A DNA stretch of 64,000 bases, taken from contig JAIKWD010000008.1 in assembly GCA_024685175.1 (NCBI GenBank), positions 1-64,000 of the forward strand. The letters run 5' to 3'. The stretch is from Bacteroidales bacterium. Its GTDB lineage: Bacteria > Bacteroidota > Bacteroidia > Bacteroidales > WCHB1-69. The notes under the pieces were generated by a model. That model was not told the DNA's origin. It did not search any database and saw nothing but the letters and a program-made list of their open reading frames with translations. Made by a program: the position numbers and the translations under genes. Positions 10,884 through 21,536 of the stretch are shown one piece after another. Each line of letters begins with the position of its first letter. Position 1 is the first letter of the stretch.

Positions 10884-10940
10884 CATTTTTTTTATTTGAT
10901 AGTAACAAACTATTTTTTTTTAGATTAAAAATGAAAATTG

Positions 10941-10948
10941 TATATTTG
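10941..10948 (+). promoter_or_regulatory. -7 element for the DRTGG/H-cluster operon
   Basis: TATATTTG, 43 bases before the ATG at 10992. No good -33 box. It is the only promoter I can see for the four genes to 14081. Confidence 0.55.
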
Positions 10949-10991: not shown

Positions 10992-11339
10992 ATGACAGTT
11001 GAAGAAATTGCTACATTGGTACAGGGAGAGATCATCGCCGGCACGGAGTACAAGGACAAAAAAGTGGAGCGTGTTTTCGCTTCCGACTTGATGAGTGATG
11101 TGCTGACGTTGAAGGACTACGACAACCTGATGTTGGTGACGGGCCTTTGCAACCTGCAGTCCATACGCACTTGCGAGATGTCGGACATCGAGATCATCCT
11201 CATTGTGCGCGGCAAGGTGGTGACGCCCGAGATGTTGGAGTTAGCGGAAGACAACGATATGGTTGTGATCAGGACAGACTTTTCCCTGTACAAGACTTCC
11301 GGCATATTGTATGGCGCCGGCATACCCCCCGTTTACTAA
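10992..11339 (+). CDS. DRTGG domain protein
   Basis: A 115-residue protein consisting of a single DRTGG domain: TVEEIATLVQGEIIAGTEYK, the VFASDLMSDVLTL segment and VIRTDFSLYKTSGILY. The domain takes its name from a region found in HPr-kinase-like and phosphotransacetylase-associated proteins; stand-alone copies recur next to iron-only hydrogenase-like genes in clostridia and Bacteroidota. Its biochemical role is unknown. The next gene starts 14 bases downstream and the operon continues into an H-cluster protein, so it probably serves the same signalling unit. Confidence 0.85.
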   Translation: MTVEEIATLVQGEIIAGTEYKDKKVERVFASDLMSDVLTLKDYDNLMLVTGLCNLQSIRTCEMSDIEIILIVRGKVVTPEMLELAEDNDMVVIRTDFSLYKTSGILYGAGIPPVY

Positions 11340-11353
11340 CCAAATAGCGTATT

Positions 11354-11770
11354 ATGGATTTTGTTTACCACGTAGAAGGAGGCGACTTCACCAACGCCGG
11401 GTCCACCTCCAGTGAAGTCAAAAGGATGTTGAAGAAGCTCGGTGTCAGCCCCGACATCGTGAAGCGGACCGTCGTGGCCTTGTACGAGGCCGAGGTCAAC
11501 ATTGTAGCCCACGCCTATCGTGGCGACATAACCGTGGACTTGGAGGAAGACAAAGTGCGCATCGTGTTGGCCGACGAAGGCCCGGGCATCCCCAACATCG
11601 ACTGGGCTATGCAGAAAGGCAACTCCACCGCCTCGCCCAAGGTGCGTGAGATGGGCTTCGGCGCCGGTATGGGCCTGCCCAACATCAAGAACAACTCCGA
11701 CGAACTGAACATCCAATCGGAAGTAGGCAAGGGCACCACCATCGAATTTGTCAACTACTTCAATAAATAA
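11354..11770 (+). CDS. RsbW-like HATPase (anti-sigma kinase type)
   Basis: A 138-residue stand-alone GHKL ATPase domain. It shows the N-box region VVALYEAEVNIVAHAYRG, the G1 box VLADEGPGIPNID and the G2 region MGFGAGMGLPNIKNNS. These match the RsbW/SpoIIAB/RsbT serine-kinase/anti-sigma class; there is no histidine phosphoacceptor and no sensor domain. In such proteins the kinase phosphorylates an STAS-domain partner, but no STAS gene is in this window. The gene is immediately upstream of the H-cluster protein, with 4 bases between them. The partner and output are unknown. Confidence 0.87.
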   Translation: MDFVYHVEGGDFTNAGSTSSEVKRMLKKLGVSPDIVKRTVVALYEAEVNIVAHAYRGDITVDLEEDKVRIVLADEGPGIPNIDWAMQKGNSTASPKVREMGFGAGMGLPNIKNNSDELNIQSEVGKGTTIEFVNYFNK

Positions 11771-11774
11771 CGTT

Positions 11775-13160
11775 ATGGCAGAAGTACAAGATTTCCACCA
11801 CGCACTCAAGTTCAAGCAGGACCTCTGCATCGGCTGCGCCCACTGCACGGGCGTCTGCCCCACGGGCGCCATCCACATCGAAGAAGGCCACCCCGTACTC
11901 GACCCCAACCGCTGCGTCGACTGCGGCAGATGCTACAATGCTTGCCCTGTAAATGCCATCTACATCGAACAGGACGACTTCCAGCTGGTGTACGACTGCA
12001 AATATCCCGTACTTCTCCTGCCCTCCATATTCATCGCCCAGTTTGAAGAGAAAATCAAGGAGAAAACCATCCTCTCAGCTCTCTACCACATAGGCTTCAA
12101 ACACGTTTTCGAAGTCGAAAAAAGCGTCGACTTCATCAAGCAGGAGATGCAGAAGACCGTGCACGACAACAACGGCTACAAGCCCATTATCTCCACCTTC
12201 TGTCCCGCCGTGGTGCGCCTCATCCAGGTCAAGTTCCCCGTGTTGGTGCCCAACCTGTACCTATCGAAACCACCCTTGGACCTTACCGCACTGTACATCA
12301 AGAAGTTATTAACCGAAGAGGACAACATCCCGATGGAGGACATCGGCATCTTCTATGTGACGCCGTGCGCCGCAAAGATCGCCGCCATCAAGAGTCCGGC
12401 CACCGAAGAGGAGTCGCCCGTGACCAGCGTCATCAATATGAACTACCTCTACAGCAAGGTGATGCGTGTCATCAAGCAGGGTGAGTACAAGCTCTGCGAA
12501 GACTCGCGCACCCGATATCACCGACTCTCCAAGGACAGCGTCAACTTCACGCTCACCGGCGGAGAGGTCAGCCTGCTCAAGGAGGGCCGCAACCTTGCCA
12601 TCGACGGCATCCACAACGTGTCCGACTTTCTGGAGAAACTGGAAGACGAGGACATACAGGACATCGACTTTCTGGAGCTGCGCGCCTGCGACGAGAGTTG
12701 CGCCGGAGGCATCCTCTGCGCCAACAACCGCTTCCTGATGGCCGAGCGTCAGCGCAACCGAATGCACAAGTCGCCCGAAGAAGTGGACGCTGAAGACAAC
12801 GACCTGCTCAACTATATGGACTACCTCGCCCAGCACAAGCGCGTGCTCGGCACCGTGGAACCTCGTTCGATGGACAAGATGGACGACAATATGGCCGTGG
12901 CGATGCAAAAGATGCGCAAAGCCTTCGAAATCAACCAGAACCTGCCGCAAGTAGACTGCCGTATTTGCGGCTACCAATCCTGTAAAGCGCTCTCCGAGGC
13001 CGTCGTCAACGACAAGGCCAACGTAGAACAGTGCATCTTCGTGCAACGCGCCCTCGAGCATTCGGAGAAACTGAGCATCCTGGACACGCTCCACATCAAC
13101 ACCAAGATTTGGGGTTCGAAGAAAAACGATCCGTCCATCATCAAGAACCTCAACCTCTAA
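11775..13160 (+). CDS. [FeFe]-hydrogenase-like H-cluster protein, probably sensory
   Basis: A 461-residue protein. Residues 18-28 and 47-57 hold two CxxCxxCxxxCP [4Fe-4S] motifs. An H-cluster domain follows, with the ligand cysteines Cys143 (STFCPAV), Cys198 (TPCAAK), Cys305 and Cys309 (RACDESC). Residues 395-420 form a further CxxCx4Cx16C Fe-S motif of the FeS (PF04060) kind. Catalytic hydrogenases have TSCCP, MPCxxKxxE and MACxxGC at the three H-cluster sites; here the proton-relay Cys is Phe142, the relay Glu is Ala204 and both Met positions are changed. That pattern fits non-catalytic, sensory-type members. There is no PAS domain. I chose ATG 11775; an in-frame TTG at 11748 would overlap the preceding gene. 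Confidence 0.88.
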   Translation: MAEVQDFHHALKFKQDLCIGCAHCTGVCPTGAIHIEEGHPVLDPNRCVDCGRCYNACPVNAIYIEQDDFQLVYDCKYPVLLLPSIFIAQFEEKIKEKTILSALYHIGFKHVFEVEKSVDFIKQEMQKTVHDNNGYKPIISTFCPAVVRLIQVKFPVLVPNLYLSKPPLDLTALYIKKLLTEEDNIPMEDIGIFYVTPCAAKIAAIKSPATEEESPVTSVINMNYLYSKVMRVIKQGEYKLCEDSRTRYHRLSKDSVNFTLTGGEVSLLKEGRNLAIDGIHNVSDFLEKLEDEDIQDIDFLELRACDESCAGGILCANNRFLMAERQRNRMHKSPEEVDAEDNDLLNYMDYLAQHKRVLGTVEPRSMDKMDDNMAVAMQKMRKAFEINQNLPQVDCRICGYQSCKALSEAVVNDKANVEQCIFVQRALEHSEKLSILDTLHINTKIWGSKKNDPSIIKNLNL

Positions 13161-13172
13161 TCCACTCATCCC

Positions 13173-14081
13173 GTGATAGACAAGACCATCCTGCTGGAAA
13201 GACTGTTGGATGTATTCAAGGACACCCTCGAGATTACCTTTTTGGTAATACTGATGATGTCCCTGATAGAGCTTGTCAACGTTTCCTCGTCGGGCCGGCT
13301 GCTGCAAAAAGTACAGGGCAGGCCCTGGCTACAGGTAGTGATCGCCGCCCTGCTGGGCGCCATCCCTGGATGCGCGGGCGGATTTGCGGTGGTCTCGATG
13401 TTCACCCACGACGTCATCTCCTTCGGCGCCCTGCTGTCCGGATTGGTGGCCACCTTCGGCGACGAGGCCTTCTTCTTGTTCGCCAAGAGCCCGAAACACG
13501 GCTTCCTTCTCACCGCCATCCTTTTGGGCATCGCACTCTGTACCGGACTGTTCTTCAACATTATAGGCAAGAAATGGAAACTACCCATCTGGGCCCACAA
13601 GTTCGACATCCACGAAGAAATCGACCACCACGACCACGAACATCGTCATAGCGACGGGCGTCCCGCCGGAGCGAAGGGCAAAGCCGCCCATTTCTTCAAG
13701 GAACACATCTGGGAACACGTCATCAAACAACATCTGCCCAAAGTCTTCTTCTGGTCACTGGGTGTACTGCTGTTCCTGAAGGTCGTCGAACTGTTCGTGG
13801 ACGTGGAACAACTGCTTCAGGCACGCGCCTGGACCCAATACCTGATGCTCCTGCTCGCTGTGCTAATCGGGTTTATCCCGCAATCGGGACCCAACCTCAT
13901 CTTCATCGTCCTGTTTTTGGAAGGCAGCATTCCTTTCGGCATCCTGCTAGCCAACTCCATCTCGCAAAATGGACACGCAGGCCTGCCACTCTTGGCCCAA
14001 TCGCGCCGCAACTTCTTCATTTCCAAAAGTATCACAATGGTACTAGGCCTGGCGGTGGGGGCACTGTTTCTGCTGCTATAA
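13173..14081 (+). CDS. ArsP_2-type putative metal exporter
   Basis: A 302-residue membrane protein with about eight to ten hydrophobic segments, resembling the 'putative, 10TM heavy-metal exporter' family (PF11449), often annotated as a putative manganese transporter. Motifs include AALLGAIPGCAGGFAVVSMF and its counterpart GFIPQSGPNLIFIVLFLEG, an internal two-fold repeat. Between the halves lies a histidine-rich cytoplasmic loop (DIHEEIDHHDHEHRHSDGR) likely to bind metal. The start is a GTG (13173) and lies 12 bases after the H-cluster gene, so it belongs to the same operon. Substrate is not known. Confidence 0.8.
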   Translation: MIDKTILLERLLDVFKDTLEITFLVILMMSLIELVNVSSSGRLLQKVQGRPWLQVVIAALLGAIPGCAGGFAVVSMFTHDVISFGALLSGLVATFGDEAFFLFAKSPKHGFLLTAILLGIALCTGLFFNIIGKKWKLPIWAHKFDIHEEIDHHDHEHRHSDGRPAGAKGKAAHFFKEHIWEHVIKQHLPKVFFWSLGVLLFLKVVELFVDVEQLLQARAWTQYLMLLLAVLIGFIPQSGPNLIFIVLFLEGSIPFGILLANSISQNGHAGLPLLAQSRRNFFISKSITMVLGLAVGALFLLL

Positions 14082-14091
14082 GCACGATTTC

Positions 14092-14164
14092 CCGTCCGGA
14101 CGGACGGCGGGCATCCCAAAAATCAACATCGGTTGGCACCGGACGGTGGGCTTCGCCCTTGTCC
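14092..14164. repeat. GC-rich inverted repeats after the H-cluster operon
   Basis: A 12-base palindrome CCGTCCGGACGG (14092-14103) is followed by a hairpin at 14141-14164 in which GGAC and GGGC pair with GCCC and GTCC around a TTC loop. There is no T tract. It could be a terminator used with Rho or a REP-like element. Confidence 0.4.
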
Positions 14165-14210
14165 GGGACTATTGATATCTTGCTGCTCTAACCGCTATCC
14201 GCTTTTTTTG

Positions 14211-14218
14211 TATATTTG
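14211..14218 (+). promoter_or_regulatory. -7 element for the DPP4 gene
   Basis: TATATTTG after a T-rich tract, 28 bases before the ATG at 14247. Confidence 0.55.
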
Positions 14219-16508: not shown

Positions 16509-19500
16509 TTAATCTTTCAAGCAGCGCACAGACATACCAATAGCCTTGCTTGCGGAACTACCTGTTGGGCAAGTGCTATCATTATATCTGATGACGACCG
16601 GGCAAAAATTCGTAGAAGGACTTGATTGGGTAGCGCTCATAAAGTAGGCATACTTCCCAAACATCATATAGTTTCCATTATTATGGCCACCCGCAGGTTT
16701 GGCAGAGAAGCCTGTCGCATTGTTGTTATTTTGTATGTGACCCACATTACAGTCCACATTGTCGGAATCCCAACCTGTCGTCGTGGCCAACGCCTTGGCG
16801 ATATTATCAACGGATTCGTCGCAGAGATACTCATTTTGCTGGGACACGTATGTCAACAATTTGTCCCACTCGGCTAAAGAAGGCACGTGCCAACCAGTAG
16901 GACAAACGCCCTGCACGCCACTGGGATCGGCATCGGAAGAGGCGGCATCGTGCATTGTGGTCGCCCAATTGTACAGATAACCGTACGCCTCCGCATTATC
17001 CGTATTGCCATTCGGAGCATAATAATTGGCAATGGCCACTCCATTGCTATAATGGGTGGTACGGATGTTTTCCTTTGTCCAACATTGCGAGCCGACTTGC
17101 ACGGTGCTATATGTATTATTATCATAATCGCTGACCGTAGCGACACCCGTACAAGGTTGACCATCGTTAGGATTGTACGTAAAGAAGGAAATCTGTTCGC
17201 CGTACGCAGTGCCGGCCATATTGGTGGCATAGGCACGCACATAATATGTGGTTGCGGACGACAATTCCGAAATCGTGCCAGAGAAGGAGCCAAGTCCGTC
17301 CCCATTGGTAGTGTGGGAGCCGCTAATGGTCGGATTCGGGCTCGTGCCCCAACAAATACCGCGAGCGGTCACGGCTTCACCCATATCCGAAATCACCTCG
17401 CCTACGCAGATGTACGTACTGTTGTTCACCGGCGAGACCGAGGCGGTGGCGACCATAGGCGCAGACACCTGGGATCCCAGACCATCATCCGACAAGCCGC
17501 TATTTCGCAGACAGCGGACGGCACATCCCATCATCTTACTGGCATAGCCTGTCGTCAGAGATGGGTTATTACTGCTAATAATCGCACGATTGACCATTCC
17601 TGCCTCGTTCGGATTCTGTGTAGTGGTCCAGAACTCCGCACGTTCGCCATGGGAATAGGCGGCGCCGTTGAAATAGCCGGAAGGCACAGCGGAGAAGCCC
17701 GTGGCGTTGTTGGAAGAGGGATTCAGACCGGGCGAGCAATAATCGAAAGCGCTATTCCAGCCCGTTGCAGCGGCCAACGCAGCCGCGTTATTCTGATGAT
17801 TATCATTACACTGGAAATGACTCTGCGAAGAGACATAATTGGCCAATTGTTTCATCTCGGCCATCGAGGGCACGTGCCAACCCGCGGGACAGATTCCCTC
17901 CACCCCACTCGGGATGTTGTTGGAGGCCCCGTCATTATGAACAACGGCAGCCCAGTTGTACAGATATCCGTACAGTTGGACTTTGGACGGATCACCGTCG
18001 GGATAGAAGCGATACGGAATTGTTGAGGAATTGGCATTTGAACTCAACTGTATTGTGTTGGCATCATTGAATCTGGTGGTACGCATATTGGTTTTGGTCC
18101 AACACTGGCCACCTATTTGAACAGTGGGATAGGCATTGTTATCATTGTCGTACACCACGGCGGTGCCTTGGCACGATTGGCCATCATTGGGGTTGGTGGT
18201 AGTCGTGACGAACACATCGGAGTATCCCGTGCCGGCGCTGTTGGTGGCGTATGCACGCACATAGTACAACGTACCGTCAGTCAACCCCGAGATGGTATTG
18301 GAGAAGTTACCCATTCCGGCCCCGCCATCGGTATGAGTGCCATTCACGGTCGGATTGGGAGAGGTGCTCCAACAGAAACCACGGGAAGTCACCGGGGCAC
18401 CCATATCGGCCAACACTTCACCTGCACAGTTTATCGTGGAAGCAGTGACCGTCGGAGTGCTCATCATCAAGACGGGCGGCAAGACCTGTAAGTCGCCAGA
18501 TTCTTGTGGCATACTGCTTACATCGCGCAAGCAGCGTACGGAATAGCCCATATGTCCTTGGGTGTTATTCGCCCTAAAGGCGTAATCGTCATAGTCCGCC
18601 TTGTAGAGACGAATGTTATTGTTGGACGGGCTGGTGCAGGTCCAGAAGTAAGCCGAGTTCTCCAATGGTTGCGGGGTACCGTTGTGATAACCCGCAGCCA
18701 AGGCCATAAAGCCGGATGCATTGTTCGCGGACGGGACACTACCAATCGTACATTCGCCACTAGAGTTACGCCAGCCGAAAGTGGAGGCCAAGGCTTTGGA
18801 GTACTTGGAATCCGAACAGGCATACTGCGCCGACACATAGTTGATGAGGGTATCCCATTCCGCCGCGGAAGGCACGTGCCATCCGGTCGGACAAATGCCC
18901 TGCACACCGGAAGGTACGCTGCTTGAAGCGGTTGCACCGTTCATCACGGCAGGCCAAGAATAGAGATATCCATAAGTCGAGGCGAGATTCCCATCATTAT
19001 TCGGCAGGTAACGTGCCACACCCGTCGAAGAACTATTACTCACTGGTATGGGAGTGCCGTTGGGCTGTTTGCTGGTGCGCAAGTTCTGTTTCATCCAGCA
19101 CTGCTTGCCTATTTGCACGGTAGGATATACATTGCCGTCCACATCGGCCACCGCAGGCGTGCCGCTGCAAGGCCAAGCATCATTGGGATTCACGCTGGTG
19201 CTGTCCCAAGACTGATACTCAAACATGGTGGTAAATGTCTTTTCAGCACCATAACTCGTACCCAATTGATTGGTGGCGAAAGCCCGAATGTGGTAACATT
19301 TGCCTGGAAGAAGCGCGCGAAGGTCGCTGACGAAAGCACCGGTACCGCCACCAGCAATGGTATGGTTGTCTGCAATGGTCGGATTGCCCGTCAGATTCCA
19401 GCAGATACCCTTGGCTGTCACAATATTGCCGCCATCGCTGATTACATCGCCGCCAATCACGGACGTGGTGGTGGTTATTTCCGAGATATTTGTCGTATTA

Positions 19501-21536
19501 ACCGTAGGTCTGTTGCCATTGAGGGCGCTGCTGTCGCCAGAGGCCAAGCGCAAGCTGTCGATGGTCTGCTGCAGTTCGGCGAGAATGGCCTGCAACTGCG
19601 CGTCTGTGATATAATGCGCATCGTTGTTGAAGGCACTCACATTCGTCGGCACCGTCGGGATGGTAGGCTTGTTGAGAATCATAGACACTCCAGTGGTGGC
19701 ATTCCAGTCGGCATTCACCTGCGCAGCAGGGATGTTCGGCTTGTTGATCAAGTCGTTGTAGTCCTTGTCCCAAGCGGTAAATTGAGGATCCGCTTCGGTG
19801 TAGGAGGTAAGGTATCCAGCATCGTTTTGGAAAGCACTCACATTGGTCGGCACCGTCGGGATGGTCGGCTTGTTGATCAAGTCGTTGTAGTCCTTGTCCC
19901 AAGCGGTAAATTGGGGATCCGTTTCGGTGTAGGAGGTAAGGTATCCAGCATCGTTTTGGAAAGCGCTCACATTAGTCGGCACCGTCGGGATGGTCGGCTT
20001 GTTGATCAAGTCGTTGTAGTCCTTGCTCCAAGCGGTAAATTGAGGATCCGTTTCGGTGTAGGAGGTAAGATAACCGACATCGTTGGTAAAGGCACTCACA
20101 TTGGTTGGCACGATCGGGATTTGAGGACGGTTGTTCAAATCGTTGTAATTGCCCGTGGTGGCAACCGTTGCCAGATTAGGCTTGTTTTGCAAGGCGTTGT
20201 AGTTGTAGTTCCAATTGCTGAGCCAAGCCGTAAAGTTAGGATCATACTCCACACTGGCATTAACGCTATCGGGCATCGTGGTGAGGAATCCCACATCGTT
20301 CGTAAAGGCACTCAAGGCCATCGGGCGGTTGGAGAGATCGTTGTAATCGCCGCTAAAGCCAGCGGGCAGTTTCACATAACTACCCCCCGTTAAGAAGATA
20401 GTGTCACCTTGAATAGTCAATATTTGCGATTCGGTAATGCTGGTTAGATATCCGGCATCGTTGGTAAAGGCACTCACATTGGCAGGTACGGTCGGAATGG
20501 TCGGCTTGTTGGTTAAGTCGCTGTAGTTGCCACTCGTCGCAACGGGCGCGAGGTTGGGCTTGTTGAGAATCATCTCCACCCCACTCATCGCATTCCAGTC
20601 GGCGTTTTGTTGGACCGGCACCTGCATGCCGGTAATGTAACCAACATCATTGGTAAAAGCACTTACATTAGTGGGGACGGTCGGGATTTGAGGAATGGAA
20701 TCCATTGTAATATAACCCACATCGTTAGCGAAAGCCCCCACATTGGAAGGCACAGTAGGGATGACCGGTTTGTTTAAGATGTATTGCGGACTGGTAGTAT
20801 CGCTCTCGTTCCAGTCGGCCTGCTGCTGGATTAGCGTATCCAAGCCGCCGCCGTCCGTACCATTGTATAGATAAAGCGTATCTGTCCCATCGACATCGGT
20901 TATTATGATCTGATAACCATTGTTAATCGGTGTGGTTGTTATCGTAGGCGAAATACCGTCTGCTCCATCCGCGCCATCCTCGCCGTCTGCTCCATCGGTT
21001 CCATTGGCACCGTCTGCTCCATCTTCCCCATCGCGACCGTTGCAAATCACGTAGGTCTGTGTCACTCCATCAGCGGTGATGGACATCATGTAACCTGTGT
21101 CGGTGGGAGTCATAGCGATTGAAGGCACGTTTCCTGCGCTATTCGCATACAGAGCATAAGGCACGCTCATCAGTTGTTGCACGCCCTCAATGCTGTAATT
21201 GATGCCACCTTCTGGGTCGATTTCGGATTTCATGTAATAGGGACCATCACTCCAGTCCACTTGCGACATTGCACCTTGCACCGCGACTCCGTCACCGATC
21301 TCCAAGGTAAGCAGGCCATTTGCATTTGTCGTGTTCTGGTGTGTTTCGACATATACGGGGGCACCGTTCACGTCTCCCCGCAAAATAGTAATCCTTGCGG
21401 ACACATTATGGTTGGCCAACAGCATATTGTTTGCATTGCGGACAACGGCTTGATAAGTCATCTTTTGTGGAGCTTGTGCAAACAAGGATGTCAATCCAAC
21501 CACGAGCATAAAGAGTAGGGTGCAGATTTTTTTCAT
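16509..21536 (-). CDS. large repeat-rich exported protein with three FISUMP domains
   Basis: A 1675-residue exported protein (signal peptide 1-20). The N-terminal module (QKMTYQAVVRNANNMLLANH) is common in Bacteroidota surface proteins. Residues 166-196 form a collagen-like Gly-x-x run rich in Asp. Residues 260-650 are tail-fibre-like repeats (DYNDLINKPTIPTVPTNVSA), with three nearly identical 43-residue copies. Three FISUMP domains (TIGR02145-type, with PTVQIGGQCWTKTNMRT, GICPAGWHVPS and VRCLRN) lie at about 784-1002, 1114-1344 and 1455-1675, each preceded by a fibronectin-like repeat with GxCWSTSPNPT. I see no type IX sorting domain. A surface adhesin or fibre role is inference. Confidence 0.85.
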   Translation of the reverse strand: MKKICTLLFMLVVGLTSLFAQAPQKMTYQAVVRNANNMLLANHNVSARITILRGDVNGAPVYVETHQNTTNANGLLTLEIGDGVAVQGAMSQVDWSDGPYYMKSEIDPEGGINYSIEGVQQLMSVPYALYANSAGNVPSIAMTPTDTGYMMSITADGVTQTYVICNGRDGEDGADGANGTDGADGEDGADGADGISPTITTTPINNGYQIIITDVDGTDTLYLYNGTDGGGLDTLIQQQADWNESDTTSPQYILNKPVIPTVPSNVGAFANDVGYITMDSIPQIPTVPTNVSAFTNDVGYITGMQVPVQQNADWNAMSGVEMILNKPNLAPVATSGNYSDLTNKPTIPTVPANVSAFTNDAGYLTSITESQILTIQGDTIFLTGGSYVKLPAGFSGDYNDLSNRPMALSAFTNDVGFLTTMPDSVNASVEYDPNFTAWLSNWNYNYNALQNKPNLATVATTGNYNDLNNRPQIPIVPTNVSAFTNDVGYLTSYTETDPQFTAWSKDYNDLINKPTIPTVPTNVSAFQNDAGYLTSYTETDPQFTAWDKDYNDLINKPTIPTVPTNVSAFQNDAGYLTSYTEADPQFTAWDKDYNDLINKPNIPAAQVNADWNATTGVSMILNKPTIPTVPTNVSAFNNDAHYITDAQLQAILAELQQTIDSLRLASGDSSALNGNRPTVNTTNISEITTTTSVIGGDVISDGGNIVTAKGICWNLTGNPTIADNHTIAGGGTGAFVSDLRALLPGKCYHIRAFATNQLGTSYGAEKTFTTMFEYQSWDSTSVNPNDAWPCSGTPAVADVDGNVYPTVQIGKQCWMKQNLRTSKQPNGTPIPVSNSSSTGVARYLPNNDGNLASTYGYLYSWPAVMNGATASSSVPSGVQGICPTGWHVPSAAEWDTLINYVSAQYACSDSKYSKALASTFGWRNSSGECTIGSVPSANNASGFMALAAGYHNGTPQPLENSAYFWTCTSPSNNNIRLYKADYDDYAFRANNTQGHMGYSVRCLRDVSSMPQESGDLQVLPPVLMMSTPTVTASTINCAGEVLADMGAPVTSRGFCWSTSPNPTVNGTHTDGGAGMGNFSNTISGLTDGTLYYVRAYATNSAGTGYSDVFVTTTTNPNDGQSCQGTAVVYDNDNNAYPTVQIGGQCWTKTNMRTTRFNDANTIQLSSNANSSTIPYRFYPDGDPSKVQLYGYLYNWAAVVHNDGASNNIPSGVEGICPAGWHVPSMAEMKQLANYVSSQSHFQCNDNHQNNAAALAAATGWNSAFDYCSPGLNPSSNNATGFSAVPSGYFNGAAYSHGERAEFWTTTQNPNEAGMVNRAIISSNNPSLTTGYASKMMGCAVRCLRNSGLSDDGLGSQVSAPMVATASVSPVNNSTYICVGEVISDMGEAVTARGICWGTSPNPTISGSHTTNGDGLGSFSGTISELSSATTYYVRAYATNMAGTAYGEQISFFTYNPNDGQPCTGVATVSDYDNNTYSTVQVGSQCWTKENIRTTHYSNGVAIANYYAPNGNTDNAEAYGYLYNWATTMHDAASSDADPSGVQGVCPTGWHVPSLAEWDKLLTYVSQQNEYLCDESVDNIAKALATTTGWDSDNVDCNVGHIQNNNNATGFSAKPAGGHNNGNYMMFGKYAYFMSATQSSPSTNFCPVVIRYNDSTCPTGSSASKAIGMSVRCLKD
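19741..20128. repeat. three near-identical 129-base tandem repeats within the FISUMP gene
   Basis: The word GTCGTTGTAG recurs at 19752, 19881 and 20010, exactly 129 bases apart, with few changes between copies; a degenerate fourth copy in phase starts near 20139. The unit encodes 43 residues and stays in frame. The high DNA identity suggests recent duplication or ongoing copy-number change. Confidence 0.85.

Follow-up and report, generated by a model that had tools for sequence, protein, structure and literature searches.

Conserved association of a group D putatively sensory [FeFe]-hydrogenase with a DRTGG-domain protein and a GHKL ATPase in Bacteroidales

The window analyzed here, the whole 64,000 nt stretch of contig JAIKWD010000008.1 (assembly GCA_024685175.1, Bacteroidales bacterium, own genome labelled G000), carries a compact forward-strand locus of four genes encoding a DRTGG-domain protein (DRTGG1), a stand-alone GHKL ATPase (ATPase1), a group D putatively sensory [FeFe]-hydrogenase (HydS) and a membrane exporter (Table 1). 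The genes are separated by gaps of 14, 4 and 12 bases. An original prediction, made from the sequence alone, had read the locus as an H2- or redox-sensing operon, and open reading frame coordinates together with Pfam and NCBIfam assignments confirm the four genes where it had placed them. Comparison with related loci revealed that genes one to three, from now on referred to as the trio, keep their order far beyond chance, whereas the exporter is a clade-level neighbour and not part of the core of the unit.

Table 1 Features of the four-gene locus, with positions counted from the first nucleotide of the window
Feature	Position	Strand	Basis or remark
Promoter-like -7 element TATATTTG	10941..10948	+	43 bases before the first ATG
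DRTGG1, DRTGG-domain protein, 115 aa	10992..11339	+	Pfam, fold, conservation
ATPase1, stand-alone GHKL ATPase nearest SpoIIAB/RsbW, 138 aa	11354..11770	+	Pfam, NCBIfam, residue conservation
HydS, group D (M2e) putatively sensory [FeFe]-hydrogenase, 461 aa	11775..13160	+	ATG start; profiles, motifs, conservation, fold
HydS codons C18-C57, two N-terminal [4Fe-4S] sites	11826..11945	+	Eight Cys in 107 of 107 sequences
HydS codons F142-C143, lost proton-relay Cys (CpI C299) and H-cluster Cys (C300)	12198..12203	+	Alignment
HydS codons T196-P-C198-x-x-K201, L2 motif	12360..12377	+	CpI M353 replaced by Thr; Cys355 and Lys358 retained
HydS codons C305-x3-C309, L3 motif, two further H-cluster Cys	12687..12701	+	Alignment, conservation
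HydS codons C395-C420, C-terminal Cx2Cx4Cx16C [4Fe-4S] domain (PF04060)	12957..13034	+	Pfam, conservation
ArsP_2 / 'arsenic efflux protein' membrane exporter with His-rich loop, 302 aa	13173..14081	+	GTG start; Pfam, NCBIfam

HydS combines a large [FeFe]-hydrogenase domain (Fe_hyd_lg_C, 85.8 bits) with two [4Fe-4S] domains and the C-terminal FeS domain, and its structural model (pLDDT 90.2) found [FeFe]-hydrogenases as best structural matches, with a TM-score by query of about 0.6. Residue conservation was assessed across 107 sequences, specifically, the window HydS and 106 distinct relatives; CpI residue numbers are given as we take them to correspond to HydS positions, partly after PMC8163306. 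All 16 cluster cysteines are invariant, including the four of the H-cluster and the C-terminal quartet C395/C398/C403/C420. The position of CpI C299 is occupied by Phe in 103 sequences, by Tyr in 3 and by Ser in 1, directly before the invariant C143. Further, the M353 position carries Thr (94 sequences), Ser (6) or Ala (7), the E361 position is also changed in the alignment, and the Lys adjoining the diiron site (K358 equivalent) is kept in 103. A replacement of S357 by Ala was dropped as an unusual change, the group A HydA of the related genome G218 having Ala there as well. The profile of catalytic group A enzymes (TIGR02512) gave 85.6 bits against a cut-off of 405.95. The C-terminal PAS domain by which group C (M2f) is described had no Pfam match up to an E-value of 1, and the protein ends 41 residues past its last FeS cysteine. 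In the accessible parts of PMC8163306, PMC6984386 and PMC13104023, group D proteins are described as having two N-terminal [4Fe-4S] sites, an H-domain and a C-terminal Cx2Cx4Cx16C motif but no PAS domain, with the C299 proton relay lost and the M353 position occupied by Ser or Thr. As far as tested, each feature assigns the third gene to group D (M2e), as set apart by motif descriptions, and as a protein it appears to be an ordinary member of that group. For the H-cluster protein, which to the original prediction looked non-catalytic, a non-prototypical protein of the sensory class is supported.

The closest described system is TamHydS of Thermoanaerobacter mathranii, a characterised group D protein with a working H-cluster and low activity. 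Its gene has a kinase-like ATPase on one flank and precedes a bifurcating hydrogenase (PMC8163306, accessible text). Compared by description, TamHydS and the window HydS share the two N-terminal [4Fe-4S] sites, the H-domain, the Cx2Cx4Cx16C motif, the missing PAS domain, the loss of C299, a hydroxyl residue in place of M353, an adjoining kinase-like ATPase and a tie to HydABC. The other flank of TamHydS is an AraC regulator and the accessible description names no DRTGG protein, whereas in the window the DRTGG gene leads the operon and hydC is found on another contig. Group C HydS proteins (TmHydS, R. albus HydS and HfsB/HfsC of T. saccharolyticum) likewise have a non-prototypical H-cluster, a C-terminal FeS domain and a place in hydrogenase operons. 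According to the portions of the papers at hand they carry a PAS domain and are accompanied by a SpoIIE phosphatase, in contrast to the window HydS with its kinase-type ATPase and no PAS match. In the R. albus 7 protein that we equate with HydS because its gene neighbours adhE and SpoIIE, the PAS match is weak (19.4 of 22.6 bits); the protein is 25.8% identical to the window HydS and reads SSCCH at L1. Group C HydS and its Ser phosphatase have been addressed through knock-outs in Thermoanaerobacterium (PMC5707799 and PMC11837493, in part) and the R. albus protein through transcript data (PMC6776011, in part).

ATPase1 exceeds the cut-off of HATPase_c_2 (51 bits) and shares the GHKL domain, N-box and G1/G2 boxes with the anti-sigma kinases SpoIIAB and RsbW. 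The N-box residues Glu45 and Asn49 and the glycine boxes are intact and invariant in 107/107 sequences. It falls far below both equivalog cut-offs, reaching 54.5 of 135 bits for SpoIIAB and 40.3 of 145 bits for RsbW, and unlike these kinases it has no adjoining STAS partner that we could see. A kinase-type GHKL ATPase beside a sensory-class H-cluster protein, as originally predicted, is supported.

The DRTGG (PF07085) profile scored 23.9 bits on DRTGG1, just below the cut-off of 25.2, and 27.8, 35.3 and 23.6 bits on its orthologues at loci L136, L167 and L166. The last of these, NZ_OY725779.1, is a PLSDB record labelled plasmid that carries gyrA and looks like a chromosome piece. The AlphaFold2 model of DRTGG1 (pLDDT 97.1) matched 2ioj (TM-score 0.85), 3l2b (0.72-0.74) and the HPr kinase N-domain in Foldseek, in agreement with a predicted DRTGG fold despite the profile score. 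Three motifs, SDLMSDVLT, TGLxNxQxxRTxEM and RxK, are conserved across 107 sequences, with S35, Q56, R59, T60, R73 and K75 invariant. DRTGG1 therefore has its fold in common with the DRTGG domains of AF1212 (2ioj) and of the CBS-DRTGG pyrophosphatase (3l2b), but it stands alone, and SDLMSD and RTxEM are conserved motifs of its own. Further, unlike in the context of AF1212 or the CBS-DRTGG pyrophosphatase, its gene precedes the ATPase gene in the fetched loci holding both.

Of 247 genomes belonging to the order, 73 contain strong HydS relatives (E-values up to 1e-50; counted by eye). We fetched 129 loci, 49 of them from 34 genomes and 80 being named loci, the best 80 of a longer scan. DRTGG and ATPase genes lie directly before HydS in 127 of these loci, repeats included, corresponding to 106 of 108 distinct HydS sequences, and the trio was found in 74 of the 75 named loci with upstream room. 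Of the two loci lacking this arrangement, L127 is cut by a contig end and L115 is a true exception. The DRTGG protein, originally proposed as a further module, is thus a fixed component of a conserved unit and not a loose extra. The four-gene order that had been put forward for checking stands for the first three genes and fails for the exporter.

Downstream of HydS, the genes of the hydrogenase HydABC recur. Of the named loci, 58 offer 5.5 kb or more of downstream sequence. In 35 of these HydB (called at over 70% identity to HydB of G218) lies within 4.5 kb, in 7 the exporter is present and in 16 there is neither. A second set of small genes encoding a further DRTGG protein (DRTGG2), a PHP protein and a second ATPase (ATPase2) follows HydS completely in 40 of the 65 distinct loci that extend far enough; in 21 none of the three is present. 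Where there was room on both sides (42 named loci), the trio sits between two hydrogenase operons in 12 cases, has hydBAC downstream only in another 12 and has hydrogenase genes on neither side in 18. In the clade of the window the trio does not adjoin hydBAC; at L074, L076, L077 and L078 (63-66% identity) hydBAC is still found within 2.8 kb. These data tie the trio to HydABC as one unit, which here has moved away from the hydrogenase genes. The original prediction had set HydABC genes in the same operon against a sensor function. Many relatives do show this arrangement, yet the sensor idea is left standing because Land et al. 2020 report such a placement for group D HydS (PMC8163306, in its accessible part).

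The trio is not confined to Bacteroidota. Subdoligranulum variabile (Clostridia) encodes it with identities of 34% (DRTGG), 52% (ATPase) and 31% (HydS), with Pfam in agreement. Next come a frame that by eye resembles DRTGG2 and then PHP, and HydA lies upstream on the opposite strand. In Parabacteroides distasonis the six-gene cassette stands alone, with 60 kb separating it from HydA in that record. Thermophagus xiamenensis has the full set and, upstream of it, a second HydS-like protein and SpoIIE; this second HydS is termed group C-like by its SpoIIE neighbour and length, and Pfam finds no PAS domain in it. Among 77 loci with sufficient sequence, 4 have SpoIIE upstream of HydS, and in all four a second, group C-like HydS accompanies it. 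In Petrimonas mucosa, ING2E5A_0849 has been annotated as '[FeFe] group C1, histidine kinase-linked' and as a possible H2 sensor near hndABCD (0853-0856) (PMC7768429, in part); the spacing of the locus tags fits an order of HydS-DRTGG2-PHP-ATPase2-Hnd and suggests a relative of the present family.

The H-cluster maturases HydE, HydF and HydG all exceed their cut-offs in the own genome, where a TM1266-family gene adjoins hydG. A stripped-down system without a hydrogenase, as first proposed, is not supported: contig C22 starts inside hydC (G000:C22:2-271, L154; residues 74-163, 88.9% identical to HydC of G218), close relatives have hydBAC, and hydB follows in 35 of the 58 loci mentioned above. 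The 712-aa gene and truB, which lie near hydBAC in G218, are missing from G000 as well. An orphan sensor with HydS and HydEFG but no hydrogenase was therefore rejected for this genome, and the absence of hydB and hydA is most likely an assembly or binning gap. Across the genus, HydS-like frames (by score and length, by eye) occur in 37 of 40 genomes and HydA above cut-off in 31 of 40.

Genome G001 (99% complete, 140 contigs) has no HydA match beyond HydS, HydB and HydC not having been sought genome-wide, and keeps HydE, HydF, HydG and HydS. Its stretch beside the CorA gene is continuous without hydBAC, which is present there in G258 and G260 (CorA after hydBAC). This may be a true loss of the hydrogenase with the sensor kept (C66, L150; C110, L034), seen in one fragmented metagenome-assembled genome; if real, it would be the best hint from nature that HydS undergoes maturation. 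As a separate observation, two HydE lineages occur within one genus (L062 and L063 versus L064 and L065). The HydE of the own genome is 41-42% identical to those of G120 and G218, in contrast to its HydS with 84% and 91%, and the HydE proteins of G000 and G001 are 52% identical.

We hypothesize, with the chances about even, that the trio is one signalling unit for the HydABC of the cell, in which HydS senses H2, the ATPase acts as a switch and the DRTGG protein is its partner. HydS would carry an H-cluster built by HydEFG and read H2 or an H2-poised redox state with weak turnover; the ligands and maturase genes for putative diiron subsite binding and slow H2 turnover are present. The state of HydS would alter its engagement of the SpoIIAB/RsbW-like ATPase encoded just upstream. 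This ATPase would be an ATP-dependent switch, either a kinase or an ATP-gated binder, and the DRTGG protein is its constant candidate partner. Hydrogenase expression or activity could then be set either by the DRTGG protein or by the ATPase once it is freed. What the analysis shows is the unit of genes with its conservation, the intact residues for the H-cluster, the FeS clusters and the kinase function, the presence of maturase genes and the tie to HydABC in relatives; H2 as the signal, contact among the three proteins, the DRTGG protein as partner and HydABC as target are what we infer. A more specific version, which we regard as rather unlikely, is a STAS-less partner switch in which a SpoIIAB/RsbW-type kinase has the stand-alone DRTGG protein as its phospho-acceptor (S35 and T60, both invariant, being the candidate sites) or binding partner and is controlled by the H2-sensing HydS; in the few relatives with a group C-like HydS upstream, a kinase branch and a SpoIIE phosphatase branch could meet on the DRTGG protein.

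Some points weigh against this signalling unit. Locus L115, the one true exception to the trio, has full room and encodes HydS, PHP and a second ATPase but neither DRTGG1 nor ATPase1. HydG had no match in five HydS-bearing genomes (G003, G043, G050, G072 and G105). The C-terminal cluster of TamHydS shows no response to H2 (PMC13104023, in part). Finally, a search of open-licence PMC articles returned none that combines DRTGG with partner switching. The missing HydG may be an assembly or detection gap because HydA is present in the same five genomes, four of which hold group A HydA at an E-value of 1e-156 or better and one of which (G050) holds a partial HydA.

HydS could instead be a redox sensor or electron carrier with only [4Fe-4S] clusters and no diiron site, so that the unit reads the ferredoxin or NADH redox state and not H2. 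We consider this unlikely. The lost relay cysteine (F142), the changes at the M353 and E361 positions and the five genomes without a HydG match would fit such a role, the last of these being open to the artefact just described. However, the invariant H-cluster cysteines and the retained diiron-contacting Lys argue for an H-cluster, as do the maturases of the own genome and those remaining in G001, where no HydA was found. Further, TamHydS lacks the same relay and yet has a full H-cluster (PMC8163306, accessible text).

It is similarly improbable that the trio is a helper which builds or protects HydABC, with the ATPase acting in a chaperone-like manner and HydS as a scaffold. The frequent position of HydB behind HydS and the extra small genes DRTGG2, PHP and ATPase2 are what such a helper would suggest, but the trio holds together when unlinked from hydBAC, it remains in G001, where no HydA was found, and the HydS residues are those of the sensory class.

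Classical partner switching, in which the ATPase would be an anti-sigma or anti-regulator kinase working against STAS and SpoIIE proteins encoded elsewhere in the genome, is in our view very unlikely. SpoIIAB and RsbW are the closest families of the ATPase, SpoIIE does occur upstream of a few HydS genes, and the own genome has one SpoIIE gene (genome-wide search, own genome only) and one STAS gene adjoining each other on contig C10. However, that SpoIIE protein (G000:C10:26181-28460, L162:6182-8461) carries its own C-terminal RsbW-like domain beside the stand-alone STAS gene, so the cassette is seemingly self-contained and separate from the trio. The STAS check used the PF01740 profile in four genus members: two of these, the trio carriers G001 and G120, have no stand-alone PF01740 gene, their matches being confined to frames of 571 and 566 aa, and STAS_2 (PF13466) was not searched. 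STAS being thus not constant and the ATPase scoring far below the equivalog cut-offs, the STAS-based switch of the original prediction is not supported for the trio, nor are the STAS and SpoIIE proteins elsewhere in the genome as its missing partners.

The exporter exceeds its cut-offs (ArsP_2, 130.1 of 32.5 bits; NF037962, 135.4 of 100 bits). Nine named loci have a HydS that is at least 71% identical, and in 8 of them the exporter comes after the trio. It was not found at the remaining 71 named loci, some with little room, nor in any fetched locus below 71% identity. Because of this distribution we read it as a habit of the clade, and its proposed role as an output of the sensor is not sustained. 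That all four genes form an operon for metal homeostasis, in which HydS would report on the state of FeS clusters and the exporter would be the effector, is highly improbable: the exporter does start 12 bases behind HydS with no TAnnTTTG box between and recurs in close relatives, though the exporters themselves differ (43% identity between the window and G001), but it is absent from L070 and G120 and from more distant loci while the trio stays.

To turn to what is already in print, a kinase-like ATPase next to a group D sensor has been described. As a system, the trio is a conserved three-gene putative sensor unit whose DRTGG component is apparently undescribed. No paper linking DRTGG to these hydrogenases was found among open-licence PMC articles; an AAA-DRTGG protein involved in lactate growth (PMC10102598) is unrelated to a hydrogenase link. 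Land et al. 2020 (PMC8163306) ask outright how group D sensors relay their signal, and a 2026 paper on TamHydS (PMC13104023) argues against one proposed signalling route, both according to their accessible parts. The constancy of the trio in nearly all fetched Bacteroidota loci and in a Clostridia relative, even where the hydrogenase genes lie elsewhere, points to two specific candidate partners and makes the signalling route of group D HydS testable. It also bears on the control of H2 production in gut and rumen Bacteroidales.

The gap lengths of 4-14 bases given in the original prediction are correct. One TAnnTTTG element, which we take to be the Bacteroidota -7 box, precedes the four genes, and the next on the same strand is at 14211. 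A single promoter giving one transcript, as originally predicted, fits these positions but is unproven because a motif of such shortness occurs often (50 times in the window against 31.6 expected) and a sigma-70-type scan of the operon region found fewer sites than in shuffled sequences (1, marking 10919-10946, against 2.5).

No terminator was called at 14083-14170 behind the operon; this stretch is GC-rich and contains palindromic pieces. Elsewhere in the neighbourhood, 16509-21536 on the reverse strand encodes a secreted-looking, repeat-rich protein of 1675 aa. Among members of the genus, G271:C6, G249:C11, G281:C37 and others carry paired [FeFe]-hydrogenase-like frames of 489-492 aa and 572 aa, which score about 140 and 72 bits to TIGR02512 and were not seen in the own genome.

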